Shown piece by piece: positions 16,661 to 54,107 of a DNA stretch of 64,000 nt. Origin of the DNA: Crossiella sp. CA-258035. Lineage in GTDB: Bacteria > Actinomycetota > Actinomycetes > Mycobacteriales > Pseudonocardiaceae. The notes beneath the pieces are model-generated. The model searched no databases and was not told the origin of the DNA. It saw only the letters and a program-made list of their open reading frames with translations. Each line of letters begins with the position of its first letter. Position 1 is the first letter of the stretch. The translations under genes and the position numbers were made by a program. The stretch is from positions 6,666,001 to 6,730,000 of the forward strand of contig NZ_CP116413.1 of NCBI RefSeq assembly GCF_030064675.1. The letters are read 5' to 3'.

Positions 16661-17839
16661 ATGAAAGCTGTGACCTGGCACGGGAAACGCGACATCCGCG
16701 TGGACACCGTGGCCGACCCGGCGCTCACCGAGCCCGACGACGTGATCGTGCGGATCACCTCATCCGGGATCTGCGGCTCGGACCTGCACCTGTACGAGGT
16801 GATGGGCCCGTTCCTGGACCCCGGCGACGTGCTCGGGCACGAGCCGATGGGCATCGTGCAGGAGGTCGGCCCGCAGGTGACCGCGGTCCAGCCGGGCGAC
16901 CGGGTGGTGGTGCCGTTCAACGTCTCCTGCGGCACCTGCTTCATGTGCGGGCAGGGCCTGCACTCCCAGTGCGAGACCACCCAGGTCCGCGAGCAGGGCT
17001 CGGGCGCGGCACTGTTCGGCTACACCAAGCTCTACGGCCAGGTGCCCGGCGGGCAGGCGGAGTACCTGCGGGTGCCCTTCGGCAACCAGCTGCCGATCAA
17101 GGTGCCGCAGGGCCCGCCGGACGACCGGTTCGTCTACCTCTCCGATGTGCTGCCCACCGCGTGGCAGGCGGTGGAGTACGCGGCGATCCCGCCGGGCGGC
17201 AGCGTCGCGGTGCTCGGGCTCGGGCCGATCGGCGACATGGCCACCCGGATCGCCAAACATCGTGGCGCGGAACGGGTCTTCGGCCTGGACCTGGTGCCGG
17301 AACGGCTGGAACGGGCCAGCCGCAACGGGATCGAAGCCATCGACGTGCGCTCGGCCGACCTGCTGGAGCAGATCCGCGACCGCACCGACGGCCGCGGCCC
17401 GGACGCGGTGATCGACGCGGTCGGCATGGAGGCGCACGGTTCCCCGGTCGGCAAGGTCGCCCAGCAGCTCACCGGTCTGCTGCCGGACGCGCTGGCCGCC
17501 AAGCTGATGCGCACCGCGGGCGTGGACCGGTTGCACGCGCTGCACCTGGCCATCGAGCTGGTGCGGCGCGGCGGCACCATCTCGGTCTCCGGCGTCTACG
17601 GCGGCATGGCCGACCCGCTGCCGATGCTCACCCTGTTCGACAAGCAGATCCAGCTGCGCATGGGCCAGGCCAACGTGCACCGCTGGGTGCAGGACATCCT
17701 GCCGCTGCTGGGCGATGACGATCCGCTGGGCACCGAGTCCTTCGCCACCCACCGCGTCCCGCTGGCCGACGCGCCGCGCGCGTACGAGATGTTCCAGAAG
17801 AAGCAGGACGGCGCGATCAAGATCCTGCTGACGCCCTAG
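16661..17839 (+). CDS. Zinc-dependent alcohol dehydrogenase (formaldehyde dehydrogenase-like)
   Basis: The 392-residue MDR protein has catalytic zinc ligands Cys38 (GICGSD) and His60-Glu61 (GHEPMG), a structural zinc lobe with Cys90, Cys93, Cys96 and Cys104, and an NAD-binding GLGPIG motif. The long C-terminal insertion (LLPDALAAKLMRTAG) is typical of the glutathione-independent formaldehyde dehydrogenase-like branch. GGAGGAG sits 4-5 nt before the ATG, a strong ribosome binding site. The stop TAG shares CTAG with the stop of the convergent APH gene. Confidence 0.92.
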   Translation: MKAVTWHGKRDIRVDTVADPALTEPDDVIVRITSSGICGSDLHLYEVMGPFLDPGDVLGHEPMGIVQEVGPQVTAVQPGDRVVVPFNVSCGTCFMCGQGLHSQCETTQVREQGSGAALFGYTKLYGQVPGGQAEYLRVPFGNQLPIKVPQGPPDDRFVYLSDVLPTAWQAVEYAAIPPGGSVAVLGLGPIGDMATRIAKHRGAERVFGLDLVPERLERASRNGIEAIDVRSADLLEQIRDRTDGRGPDAVIDAVGMEAHGSPVGKVAQQLTGLLPDALAAKLMRTAGVDRLHALHLAIELVRRGGTISVSGVYGGMADPLPMLTLFDKQIQLRMGQANVHRWVQDILPLLGDDDPLGTESFATHRVPLADAPRAYEMFQKKQDGAIKILLTP

Positions 17840-23669: not shown

Positions 23670-24576
23670 GCAACGCCAAGCCCGCCAGCACGATCGCCAC
23701 CGCCACCGCCGCGGGCACGTGCGGCATCAGGGCCGAGGTGTGCACCAGGTCGGGGACCGCGTGCGCCAGCGCCAGGATCGCGGCCAGCCAGCTGCCCGCC
23801 AGCAGCAGCCACGGCCGGTCCCTGGCCACCACCAGCGCGGCCAGCACCACCGCGGCGGCCACCGTCCAGACGACCGGGGCGCAGAGCCCGCTCGGCAACA
23901 TCATCAGGACCTGCGCCTGCGCCAGCGAGGCCACCGCGGCCAGCAGCACCGCGAGCCCCCAGTGCCGCGGCCGCCCCGGCACCGCCAGCGGCGCCCGCCG
24001 CCAGGCGAGCAGCGCCGCGAGCAGCGTGCAGACCGAGAGCACCCGCCCGGCCCAGGCCGGCCCGAGCGGGTCGTTGACCACCTGGAGCACCAGCGGCACC
24101 CCGGCCAGCGCCACCGCCAGCGGGGCGGCGTACCGGCGGCCCCGCAGCAGCCCGTGCAGCACCGCCAGCCACCCGGCCGTGAACACCAGGTCGCTCGCGA
24201 TCCGGCCCGCGATCTCCTCCCCCAGGCTGAACGACAGCGGCAGGCCGTCGAGCACCGGCGGCGTCCACACCTGCCCCAGGAACAGCGCCGCGCCCACCGA
24301 ACCCATCAGCAGCGCCACCAGCGCCATCCCGGCCTGCACCAGCACCAGCATGCCCACCAGCGCCGCCGCCGCCGGACCGGTCACCGGCGTGACCACCCGC
24401 AGCCGCACCGCCAGCGCGAGCACCGAGAGCCGCTCCCGCAGCGGCAGCACGCCGCGCTCGTCCACCGTGTCCAGCAGCGTCACCACCAGGTCCTCGCCGT
24501 GCGCGGCCCGGTAGTCCGCCGGCAGCACCCGCACCAGCCTGCGGCAGCTCTCCTCGGCCGGCTCCCCGATGTTCAC
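23629..24576 (-). CDS. Multi-spanning membrane protein coupled to PadR regulator
   Basis: The 315-residue protein has a short cytoplasmic N-terminus (CRRLVRVLPADYRAAHGEDLV, a permease-prefix-like segment often found downstream of PadR genes) followed by about seven membrane helices. Its GTG start overlaps the padR stop as GTGA, so it is translated with padR. Proteins with this arrangement are usually annotated as hypothetical or as possible export components; no transporter motif is visible here. Confidence 0.75.
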   Translation of the reverse strand: MNIGEPAEESCRRLVRVLPADYRAAHGEDLVVTLLDTVDERGVLPLRERLSVLALAVRLRVVTPVTGPAAAALVGMLVLVQAGMALVALLMGSVGAALFLGQVWTPPVLDGLPLSFSLGEEIAGRIASDLVFTAGWLAVLHGLLRGRRYAAPLAVALAGVPLVLQVVNDPLGPAWAGRVLSVCTLLAALLAWRRAPLAVPGRPRHWGLAVLLAAVASLAQAQVLMMLPSGLCAPVVWTVAAAVVLAALVVARDRPWLLLAGSWLAAILALAHAVPDLVHTSALMPHVPAAVAVAIVLAGLALLSPGGAARRVARS

Positions 24577-24917
24577 GTCAGCCTCCCCGTGGCCCGGAAC
24601 AACCGCCGCCGCACCAACCGCTGCTTGACCAGCTTCGCCCCCTCGGCCATCCGCTCCGCCGCGGTGCGCACCGCCTCCGCACCCTCGTCGGTGAGCCGGT
24701 AGTAGCGCCGCAACCGGGAGTTCTCCACCTCCTCCCGGTCCAGCGCGACCAGCCCCTGCCGCGCCAGCCGGTCCAGCAGCCCGTACAGCGTCCCCGCCGC
24801 CAGCTGCACCCGGTCCTCGGAGAGCGCCTTGACCTCCTGGATCAGCCCATACCCGTGCCGAGGCTCGTCCGCCAGCGCGGTCAACACCAGAAACGCCTGC
24901 TCAGAGAGACTCTCCAT
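24573..24917 (-). CDS. PadR-family transcriptional regulator
   Basis: The 114-residue protein has the PadR winged helix: FLVLTALADEPRHGYGLI, LAAGTLYGLLDRLARQGLV and the wing SRLRRYYRLTDEG, then a C-terminal dimerisation helix. The ATG at 24917 is preceded by AGGGGC. AT-rich repeats at 24925-24948 just upstream are a likely autoregulatory site. The downstream membrane protein is the expected main target. Confidence 0.93.
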   Translation of the reverse strand: MESLSEQAFLVLTALADEPRHGYGLIQEVKALSEDRVQLAAGTLYGLLDRLARQGLVALDREEVENSRLRRYYRLTDEGAEAVRTAAERMAEGAKLVKQRLVRRRLFRATGRLT

Positions 24918-24924
24918 GCCCCTG

Positions 24925-24948
24925 AATATACAGCGCGCCGATATATAC
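24925..24948 (-). promoter_or_regulatory. Putative PadR operator/promoter region
   Basis: Two AT-rich blocks, AATATAC (24925-24931) and GATATATAC (24940-24948), lie 8-31 bp upstream of the padR ATG in otherwise GC-rich DNA. On the transcribed strand they read as GTATATATC and GTATATT, spaced about 15 bp. PadR regulators typically bind such ATAT-containing repeats in their own promoter. The blocks may also supply the -10 element. Confidence 0.5.
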
Positions 24949-24976
24949 GCAACCGCCCAATACCCGCCCCACAACG

Positions 24977-25084
24977 GCCAACACCCCGTACGAGATCGGC
25001 CAACACGCCGAGAGGCGACAAACCCTCCCGGCGTGTTGGCCGAAGTTGGACGCAGTGTTGGCCGATCTCGTACGGGGTGTTGGC
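24977..25084. repeat. Nested inverted-repeat element with two mutually exclusive hairpins
   Basis: A perfect 30-bp inverted repeat (24977-25006 with 25055-25084, 48-bp spacer) contains the word GGCCAACAC/GTGTTGGCC several times. Inside it a second perfect 15-bp inverted repeat pairs 24996-25010 with 25029-25043. Bases 24996-25006 belong to both stems, so only one structure can form at a time. It lies 12 bp after the beta-propeller gene stop and 60 bp before the padR start, both on the minus strand. It could be a terminator, a conditional switch or a small palindromic mobile element. Confidence 0.85.
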
Positions 25085-25096
25085 GGATCGGGGCGG

Positions 25097-27067
25097 TCAG
25101 CTGAAGGGGATCCAGGACTGGTCGGCCAGGGAGTTGAGGTCCTGGCGTTTCACCCCGGCGGCGGACAGGGTCCACAGCGAGCCCGCGGCGACCAGGGAGC
25201 GGCGGACCGAGGCGTCCGAGCCCGCCGAGCGGTCCTGCGGGTGCGCCACCTGACCCACCTCGGCCACGGTCCCGCCGCCCAGCCGCAGCACCAGCGCGCC
25301 ACCGGCCGGGGGCAGCGCACGGTCGCCGCGCGGGGCCGCCCAGCCCCGGCTCACCGGCAGCACCAGCAGGCCGCTCTGCTCCCAGTACAGGAAGGCGTGC
25401 GGGTCGAACTCGGCCTCGGAGAACGCGCCCGGCAGGTGGCGCTGGGCGATCCGGCGCGGGTTGGCCCGGTCGGCCACGTCGAACAGCGACACCTGGGTGC
25501 CCAGCGTCCGGCCCTGGTCGCTGGCCTCCTGGCCGACCCCGATCAGCCTGCCGTCGCCCGCGCGGTGCAGGTAGGCCGAGTAGCCGGTGATCTTGAGCTC
25601 ACCCACCGCGCGCGGGCGGCGCGGATCGCTGAGGTCCAGGGTGTACAGCGGGTCGGTCTGCCGGAAGGTGACCACGTAGCCGGTGTCGCCGAAGAAGCGC
25701 ACCGCGTAGATCCGCTCCCCCTTGCCCAGCCCGTCCACCTTGCCGATCTCGGCGAGCTTGTCGCCCTGCCTGGCCAGCACGGTGACCGCGCTCTGCGAGT
25801 CCGGCACCTGGCGCGGCTGCGCGCCGCCGCGGGTCAGCGTGGTGGCGATCCGCAGGTTCCCGTTGTGCTCCGACAGCGAGTACTGGTTGAGCAGCGCGCC
25901 CGGCACCTGCCCGGAGGCCAGGTACTTCGGCGGCGCCGCACCCTCCACGCTGAACTGGTGCACCTGGGTGCGCGGCTCCGGCTGCGGCGCGACCTCCGCA
26001 CCCCCGCGCAGCGGCACCGCGCGCGGCCACTGGTCGTCGGCCACGTAGAGGCTCTTCTCGTTGCCGTACACGGTGTTCCCGTCCGCGGCCACGGTCACCG
26101 GATCGCCCTTGCCCAGCGGCTTGTCCAGCGGCAGGGTCAGCACGGTGAGCATGGACCCGCCGCTGAACCTGCCAGGCCGGCTCACCTTCGCGCAGTCCAC
26201 CAGCTGCCCCGAAGTCTCACCGTCCGAAGTGGACAGTCGGTAGCGCGGCAGCCAGTCGCCGATCGCGGAGTCCCGCACAACGTCCTGGTTGCGCCGCAGC
26301 GCCTGCTCGGCGGAGAGCTTGCCGTCCGGGTAGGCGAAGGGCAGCCGCGGCATCGAGCGCACCACCACCCTGGCCACCCCGCCGACCTGACGAGCGTCCA
26401 CATAGGACCCGTCGACGTCCAGGCTGCCCAGGATCTTCGGCGCGCCGGAGAGGTCCACCAGCACCAGCTTGGCCGACCCGGTCGGCCAGTCCTCCCTTGG
26501 CGCCACCCTGGGCTGGGCCAGGCTCACCCCGGAGGTCATCACCAGCGCGCGGTCGCCGTGGGTGAGCAGCTGGGTGGCGGGCCCGTCCGGCAGCTCCAGC
26601 GTGCCGGTGACCTTGGCACTGGCCACGTCGATCACCCGCAGCTTGCCGCCGACGATGGAGACCAGGCGTTTCCCGTCGTTCTTCACCAGGTCCGGCTCAT
26701 CCGCGCCGGCCTCGTGCCGGTTGGTGGTGGAGAAGCCCTGGTCGGCGGACTTCTGGCCGGAGCTCCGGTCCTCGACCGCGCCCGGGGAGCTCAGCTCCAC
26801 CCCGGTGCGCGCGTCGATGCCCGGCCTGCCCTGCTGGGCGAAGCCGTAGGCGCTGACCACCGCGGAGGCCGCGTCCCGGAACCCGGTCAGCGCGGCCGGG
26901 CAGGAGTCGTAGGCGACCAGCCGGACCGCCGCCTCGGACATCAAGGGCGGCGAGGTCTGGGCCAGTGGGCCGGACGCGGAGACCGCACCACCGGCCAGCA
27001 CCCCGGCCACCACCGTCGTCACGCCGGCGCGCACCCAACCCGTTCTCGCTCTGCCCAGCTGTCTCAT
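25097..27067 (-). CDS. Secreted protein with C-terminal beta-propeller domain (COG4880-like)
   Basis: The 656-residue protein has an N-terminal signal sequence (about 1-32, hydrophobic AGVTTVVAGVLAGGAVSASG) and then the diagnostic TTNRHEAGADEPDLVKNDG segment of the Beta_propel family (distant WD40 relatives). Repeated blades include RYRLSTSDG, YAVRFFGDTGYVVTF and DPHAFLYW. Function in this family is unknown; an extracellular binding role is likely. Its ATG overlaps the stop of the NCS1 permease gene as ATGA, so the two are co-translated. Confidence 0.88.
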   Translation of the reverse strand: MRQLGRARTGWVRAGVTTVVAGVLAGGAVSASGPLAQTSPPLMSEAAVRLVAYDSCPAALTGFRDAASAVVSAYGFAQQGRPGIDARTGVELSSPGAVEDRSSGQKSADQGFSTTNRHEAGADEPDLVKNDGKRLVSIVGGKLRVIDVASAKVTGTLELPDGPATQLLTHGDRALVMTSGVSLAQPRVAPREDWPTGSAKLVLVDLSGAPKILGSLDVDGSYVDARQVGGVARVVVRSMPRLPFAYPDGKLSAEQALRRNQDVVRDSAIGDWLPRYRLSTSDGETSGQLVDCAKVSRPGRFSGGSMLTVLTLPLDKPLGKGDPVTVAADGNTVYGNEKSLYVADDQWPRAVPLRGGAEVAPQPEPRTQVHQFSVEGAAPPKYLASGQVPGALLNQYSLSEHNGNLRIATTLTRGGAQPRQVPDSQSAVTVLARQGDKLAEIGKVDGLGKGERIYAVRFFGDTGYVVTFRQTDPLYTLDLSDPRRPRAVGELKITGYSAYLHRAGDGRLIGVGQEASDQGRTLGTQVSLFDVADRANPRRIAQRHLPGAFSEAEFDPHAFLYWEQSGLLVLPVSRGWAAPRGDRALPPAGGALVLRLGGGTVAEVGQVAHPQDRSAGSDASVRRSLVAAGSLWTLSAAGVKRQDLNSLADQSWIPFS

Positions 27068-54018: not shown

Positions 54019-54047
54019 GCGGACCCGGCGGCGCCGGGCAGACGAAA

Positions 54048-54077
54048 ACGGCGTGCGGAGGCCCCTCCGCACGCCGT
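54048..54077. terminator. Hairpin terminator after the ABC-2 permease
   Basis: ACGGCGTGCGGAGG (54048-54061) and its exact complement (54064-54077) form a 14-bp stem with a 2-nt loop, 30 bp after the permease stop. It is the strongest simple hairpin in the window and ends the ABM/S15-ABC operon. The rest of 54078-54342 contains only the inverted repeat at 54108-54126 and the SARP repeats. Confidence 0.82.
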
Positions 54078-54107
54078 TCGCGTCACAGCCCAGCATTGGA
54101 GATCTTG

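Follow-up and report, generated by a model that had tools for sequence, protein, structure and literature searches.

Among described systems, REP/BIME repeats, the DUS of Neisseriaceae, MITEs and bidirectional intrinsic terminators come closest to the element analyzed here. As described in excerpts of two papers, REP/BIME are high-copy, dispersed intergenic repeats that lie mainly in convergent or same-direction gaps downstream of coding regions, and units of opposite orientation can form larger structures, with proposed roles in termination and mRNA stability (PMC3733652, PMC2817692). In the excerpted text the REP unit is a 20-40 bp palindrome with a GTAG or CGTC tag at one end (PMC3733652), and a cognate RAYT is not necessarily present in every REP-bearing genome (PMC2817692). 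The arrays that we find in Crossiella are also high-copy and dispersed, with 38 of 58 in convergent gaps, 20 in same-direction gaps and none in divergent gaps, but their unit is non-palindromic, carries no GTAG/CGTC end tag in its consensus and ends in variable bases, and the units run head to tail at 21/22 bp, mostly 1-19 bp past stop codons. A search for the Y1 (IS200/IS605-like) RAYT transposase (PF01797) gave no match in the host genome and was positive in 5 of 14 control genomes. A RAYT-driven REP was rejected on the lack of a PF01797 match in the host, a missing RAYT being weak evidence because REP-bearing genomes need not each hold a cognate one.

The DUS, according to an excerpt of PMC3630211, consist of a short core in species-specific dialects, often as inverted pairs suggestive of terminators. 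The Crossiella family likewise has a fixed core, species dialects and inverted pairs; it differs in forming tandem phased arrays, in numbering hundreds rather than thousands of copies, and in the absence of single scattered cores, as counted within the window (the whole 64-kb stretch of DNA analyzed here). It is very unlikely that the arrays are a DNA uptake or exchange signal: the core stays fixed amid species-specific variants, and inverted pairs lie at gene ends, as in the DUS dialects of Neisseria (excerpt of PMC3630211), but scattered single copies are missing from the window, where all four exact cores lie inside one element. The array family resembles both REP/BIME and DUS, yet fails defining features of both. 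An open-access literature search gave, among the matches listed, no description of GTTGGCC arrays.

MITEs are short, non-coding, inverted-repeat elements that are dispersed and strain-polymorphic. The Crossiella arrays are short, non-coding, built as inverted repeats, dispersed, and present or absent according to strain, but they have internal tandem units, and neither an autonomous partner nor a proven target duplication was found for them. Bidirectional intrinsic terminators place a hairpin directly past both converging stop codons. The array hairpin also follows directly after both stops, but it has no U-tract, its stem is far longer, its sequence is common to many loci, and it is absent in a sister strain.

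The element lies in the gap between a beta-propeller gene and a padR gene, and comprises the following parts (positions in the window).

24965-25095, no strand assigned: whole element (architecture <<>>>), 22-bp units in inverted array; outer ends CGCCCC...GGGGCG
24977-25006, plus strand: left arm of the 30-bp perfect inverted repeat
25055-25084, minus strand: right arm of the 30-bp perfect inverted repeat
24996-25010, plus strand: left arm of the nested 15-bp perfect inverted repeat (24996-25006 common to the outer arm)
25029-25043, minus strand: right arm of the nested 15-bp perfect inverted repeat
24976-24984, minus strand: unit core GTGTTGGCC, copy 1
24998-25006, minus strand: unit core GTGTTGGCC, copy 2
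25033-25041, plus strand: unit core GTGTTGGCC, copy 3
25055-25063, plus strand: unit core GTGTTGGCC, copy 4
25077-25085, plus strand: unit core with one mismatch (GTGTTGGCG), copy 5
25097-27034, minus strand: beta-propeller protein gene, its stop codon 11 bp from the last unit core (start from a home-made gene caller)
24573-24917, minus strand: padR-family regulator gene, downstream

Pfam supports both neighbors (PadR, PF03551, E 9.5e-19; Beta_propel, PF09826, E 2.2e-129). The nested perfect inverted repeats of 30 and 15 bp, with 11 bases (24996-25006) in common, were confirmed as an earlier sequence-only reading had described them. That reading also counted five copies of one word: four are exact as GGCCAACAC/GTGTTGGCC (24976 and 24998 on the minus strand, 25033 and 25055 on the plus strand), while the fifth, at 25077, is mismatched. 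Among 2000 first-order Markov controls, each 400 bp long, the longest perfect inverted repeat was 14 bp. A scan of the 64 kb for perfect inverted repeats of 15 bp or more (spacer up to 150) gave just one besides the element's two, a 15-bp hairpin with a 2-nt loop at 54047-54078. The element is an inverted array of the 22-bp unit GTGTTGGCC-GWWST-CGTAC-NNN and not a stand-alone switch. The two stems overlap because it is built from repeated units: two units face three, and the single bulged unit can slide. A coding role is unlikely, because the Crossiella period of 22 bp is no multiple of three; some 21-bp arrays elsewhere include 20-bp and 22-bp steps. The same gap in Crossiella G002 measures 912 bp (L112) and holds an array together with more palindrome-rich sequence. 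Ahead of padR, at 24924-24950, lies a dyad (TATATATC...GTATATTC) that is kept in Crossiella strains SN42 and S99.2 while the neighboring element changes; it is possibly an autoregulatory PadR operator.

For the minus-strand RNA of 24965-25093 the predicted folding energy is -92.9 kcal/mol, which corresponds to z = -9.0 relative to 200 shuffled sequences. For 24960-25100, the optimum is -103.2 kcal/mol, compared with -102.7 when the 30-bp stem is forced and -101.9 when the 15-bp stem is forced. All three folds have the outer stem and the central hairpin in common and differ in which unit copy bulges, since one arm holds three units and the other two. In these predicted folds, a single long hairpin adopts two registers, which are the two hairpins of the earlier reading. 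The idea that two mutually exclusive hairpins make the element a conditional terminator or switch did not survive this analysis and is extremely unlikely: the 11-base overlap of the stems is real, but the alternatives lie within 1.3 kcal/mol of the optimum with outer and central stems in common, unit number and architecture vary among the other host arrays, no Rfam model scores at its gathering threshold, and the element is absent from SN42. A riboswitch or attenuator with two exclusive structures kept in relatives was accordingly rejected, with fold energies, absence in SN42 and Rfam all contrary. The Rfam matches to the element, four eukaryotic miRNA models and one viral element model, were all sub-threshold, and a known RNA family was rejected on that basis. 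The sequence-only reading had also denied a simple intrinsic terminator, and our scan of 24800-25300 agrees: no T-run follows a GC-rich hairpin at the element, and the single call is the padR promoter dyad. A classical intrinsic terminator was rejected for lack of a U-tract.

In the two-armed >>..<< arrays (n = 36), opposite units are alike at 8.1 of 13 spacer bases, compared with 6.8 for non-opposite units of the other arm (reached in 0 of 2000 permutations). In the <<..>> arrays (n = 14), the type found in the window, the corresponding values are 7.0 and 6.8 (P = 0.22 in one register and 0.04 in the other).

A comparison of 24960-25100 with the host genome (9.17 Mb, one contig) gave at least 161 matches, a lower bound from 40 scored of 121 candidates, so that the further copies envisaged for a mobile element do exist and the family is dispersed. 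The tandem-pair pattern GTGTTGGCCN{12,13}GTGTTGGC occurs 264 times in the host, and its reversed control pattern not at all. The host unit is 22 bp, occasionally 21, and the arrays mostly consist of opposed unit sets, either <<..>> (as at the window) or >>..<<; both orientations are present in 52 of 59 arrays (75-bp grouping), and unit number and architecture vary among them. The spacer is mostly G-[AT]-[AT]-[CG]-T-C-G-T-A-C-NNN (117 units of 22 bp with exact core, 40 loci). Unit positions 11-13 vary almost wholly as A/T, A/T and C/G (GATC, GAAC, GAAG, GTTG, GTTC), that is, by composition-preserving transversions. One array (L041) is one-directional, with a 44-bp higher-order period in which GTACGAGTTC-like and GTCCCGGACC-like spacers alternate. 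In all five one-directional clusters of same-direction gaps (L041, L043, L044, L067 and L070; 60-bp grouping), GTGTTGGCC reads, by eye, in the sense direction of the gene upstream, and at L044 an opposite unit pair lies ∼110 bp further on.

We measured conservation of the core on units chosen by their phase between two intact neighbors, with their own sequence unconstrained. Per position, GTTGGCC is conserved at 96-100% over 69 distinct units of the host (G000), at 100% over 10 units of G003 and at 94-100% over 48 units from other genera. Of the 15 host spacer positions, 4 are conserved like the core and 11 are at or below 90%. The S99.2 subfamily retains TTGG, with the first core C at only 65% (26 units anchored on TTGG). 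This pattern bears on the possibility that a putative protein reads GTTGGCC about every two helical turns, the phased array serving as a roadblock terminator, insulator or chromosome organizer and the hairpin being incidental. The highly conserved core amid mostly looser spacer positions, and the 21/22-bp phasing that persists in one-directional arrays, are what such binding predicts. Four host spacer positions are nevertheless as conserved as the core, the first core C is weakly kept in S99.2, and the arm covariation of the >>..<< type suggests that the arms pair. Because the neighbors that define the phase had to carry the core, gene conversion could also have produced this conservation pattern. 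On balance we consider a phased protein-binding array quite unlikely.

Placement was analyzed for 58 distinct host arrays of at least 3 units in the fetched loci. Against their 38 convergent, 20 same-direction and 0 divergent gaps stand 28, 152 and 47, respectively, among 227 array-free gaps of the same loci; convergent gaps are enriched (Fisher P = 2e-15) and divergent gaps depleted (P = 1.3e-5), for a background drawn from loci picked for holding arrays and with gene calls from a home-made codon-usage caller. In 46 of the 58 cases a gene points at the array and its stop codon lies 1-19 bp before the array start; in 4 the array overlaps such a gene end, and in 8 it lies further off. Typical junctions are TAAC|GGCCAACAC, TGACCCCACCCGC|GTGTTGGCC and TGA|CCCCACCCGC|GTGTTGGCC, and array edges often abut stop codons on both sides. 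At a few sites an ordinary GC-rich hairpin precedes the array (by eye: L038, L043, L055, L059, L064). Further dispersed palindromic repeats occur in the host, several of them near GTTGGCC arrays (G000 C1 2288669-2288830, 7230303-7230894, 6172307-6172508, 848080-848256, 2608581-2608795 and 2958952-2959155), and gene ends look like common landing sites for several palindromic repeat families.

The sister strain SN42 belongs to the same species as the host, with flanking genes mostly 94-99% identical, and is available as a draft assembly of 80 contigs. We probed the first 31 of the 58 listed arrays, which is not a random choice, with the gene to the left of each array. All 31 probes were located, three at contig ends (L013, L021, L038), and no intact array was found at the 28 resolvable orthologous sites. 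Under a loose three-core rule the only flag among the 31 was the counterpart of L041 (L110), a decayed array; at L011 a short remnant has opposite arms GGCCGGCAC/GTGCCGGCC, altered on both sides. At the window's own site, 123 bp (24967-25089) are reduced to 2 bp between flanks that are 96-97% identical, so that the site is empty in this sister strain, and no replacement hairpin was seen there. Other SN42 sites have an unrelated GC-rich hairpin (by eye: L010, L012, L014, L016, L018, L026 and L031) or next to nothing, sometimes with overlapping stop codons (L020, L025 and L028). A hairpin is thus not required at several SN42 sites, since none was seen there and the stops of some overlap.

The difference extends beyond the probed arrays. 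Convergent gaps with at least 3 cores number 0 of 20 in SN42 (140 kb) versus 8 of 22 in the host (138 kb including matching regions). Gap length is kept between host and SN42 in 21/22 (++), 40/44 (--), 19/21 (-+) and 7/11 (+-) array-free gaps, compared with 1 of 11 array-bearing gaps, that one with different sequence. When only convergent gaps are compared, the values are 1/8 for arrays and 7/11 for array-free gaps (P = 0.06); part of the turnover is therefore general to convergent gaps, because those without arrays are also less stable. In SN42, at a site orthologous to window position 17839 (L160:15894-16051), a 158-bp palindrome lies between TAG and CTA where the host has overlapping convergent stops. 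Contig C55 ends with, and C29 begins with, related pieces, and the palindrome may therefore break the assembly.

These observations give substance, in outline, to the suggestion of a mobile element: further copies, an empty site in SN42 and site-to-site turnover are all present, but a target-site duplication could not be established. A selfish MITE-like element, moved in trans by an enzyme encoded elsewhere and without host function, would insert harmlessly past stop codons. It would account for the empty site and the strain polymorphism; other palindromic families, some beside arrays, and the SN42 palindrome placed exactly between TAG and CTA are consistent with it, as is the TA dinucleotide left between the flanks at L020, L025 and L028 (by eye). 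That dinucleotide is not left at L019, L024 and L030, however, and a target duplication is not consistent across sites; no Y1/RAYT transposase was found in the host; the host shares site occupancy with G002 and S99.2; and array edges often abut stops on both sides, a placement not expected if insertion into a spacer were random. We regard this explanation as unlikely.

We read orthologous sites in three other Crossiella species: 23 of 27 probed in G002, 19 in S99.2 (without L012, L019, L023 and L032) and 16 in G003. Excluding L030 (wrong gap measured) and S99.2 L022 (contig end), arrays occupy 16 of 22 resolvable sites in G002, 12 of 17 in S99.2 and 1 of 15 in G003; chance occupancy is put, as a rough estimate, at 20%. 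Unit content is mostly different at co-occupied sites. A host array finds its best match in the array at the orthologous site in 3 of 16 cases for G002 (L013, L029, L032; mean rank 11.3 of 31) and in 2 of 5 for S99.2 (L021, L030). Common descent is clear at only a few sites: the sequences indicate it at L014 and L030 with S99.2 (at L014, from flank and loop sequence common to S99.2) and at L029 and L032 with G002, so that SN42 has lost or replaced these four arrays. At L035, judged by eye, the right-hand gene of SN42 is without final bases that are present in G000, G002 and S99.2, as if a deletion had removed them. L018 has ordinary hairpins in G002 and SN42 but arrays of different subfamilies in G000 and S99.2, a pattern that suggests independent gains. 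Arrays are thus both gained and lost, and wholesale loss in SN42 is the likelier account of that strain, though unproven. SbcD is part of a hairpin nuclease. Its gain or loss was rejected as a cause of the SN42 state, since all 18 genomes tested, whether rich in arrays or free of them, have SbcD.

Close relatives of the beta-propeller protein occur in SN42 (97%) and S99.2 (83%). Tandem pairs number 264 in G000, at least 2 in SN42, 95 in S99.2, 605 in G002 and 224 in G003, so that the array family is present in three other Crossiella species; the species differ in array consensus. Our stricter initial pattern matched 4 of 100 genomes of the order, all Crossiella. With a looser one (three GTTGGCC cores, 21-22 bp apart), 34 of the 390 Pseudonocardiaceae genomes gave matches, spread over 9 of 46 genera; where a genome had just one or two, these looked coding by eye in several cases. 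Outside Crossiella, high counts are reached in two genera, g26 with matches in 8 of 19 genomes (224, 70, 28, 27, 15, 5, 4, 3) and g16 with matches in 7 of 80 (27, 17, 9, 8, 7, 6, 2); in a class-wide sample of 394 genomes, a single genome besides the host matched, three times. The array period is mostly 21 bp at 13 loci from g26 and g16. Of 14 clusters in other genera, 9 are in convergent gaps and 2 in same-direction gaps, 9 and 38 bp from the end of the upstream gene; the remaining ones are far from genes, at a contig end and inside a predicted gene (one each). One array from another genus (G240, L168, 2582-3069) is one-directional, with 22 counted GTTGGCC units, mostly of 21 bp, at a convergent gene end. 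Related 21-bp GTTGGCC arrays thus have a patchy distribution that takes in two or more further genera of Pseudonocardiaceae, and many of them lie at the 3' ends of genes. Among the 14 clusters, 11 are one-directional and cannot form such hairpins, because their units all face one way. These one-directional arrays favor phased protein binding, and a patchy distribution fits a trans-acting partner.

How, then, is the element best understood? For a family that is dispersed in many copies, sits past stop codons, is absent from divergent gaps among the catalogued arrays, is present or absent according to strain, has a consensus in each species and is predicted to form a stable long hairpin, we tentatively prefer, at somewhat short of an even chance, a dispersed non-coding 3'-end repeat family of 21/22-bp GTTGGCC units, whose hairpin without a U-tract acts at the transcript 3' end and whose spread is REP/BIME-like. 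Each array would act on the 3' end of the transcript upstream of it, or on those of the two transcripts that converge there; the long hairpin would stop or insulate transcription, protect the RNA end, or both; and the arrays would be kept and spread by copying and homogenization within the genome, as proposed here by analogy with REP/BIME. At the window locus, the element would separate the beta-propeller transcript from padR. A 3'-end role based on the hairpin fits where the arrays sit, their paired arms and their exclusion from promoters. The occupancy of many of the same sites in G002 and S99.2, mostly with different units, speaks for it as well. Counting against the 3'-hairpin reading are the missing U-tract, the slight arm covariation in the <<..>> type, the SN42 sites without a hairpin, the occupancy of 1/15 in G003, the arrays lying beyond an ordinary hairpin at a few sites, and the one-directional clusters (11/14) elsewhere. 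The difference in consensus between species speaks for homogenization within species, and the best reading of the family's history combines this with fast turnover.

We also put forward a broader proposal, which we hold to be improbable: a Pseudonocardiaceae-specific 3'-end boundary system, in which helically phased GTTGGCC arrays, read by a putative DNA-binding protein, would mark where convergent genes end and would block or insulate transcription. The arrays would be spread and homogenized by that or a linked activity, and purged genome-wide upon loss of the system, as SN42 may show.

The patchy distribution of the family permits a comparative search for the agent that spreads it. Two strains of the same species, with genes mostly 94-99% identical, differ at all of the resolvable array sites that we sampled; both the gain and purge of high-copy palindromic repeats and a possible role of hairpins in termination at convergent gene ends are therefore directly testable.
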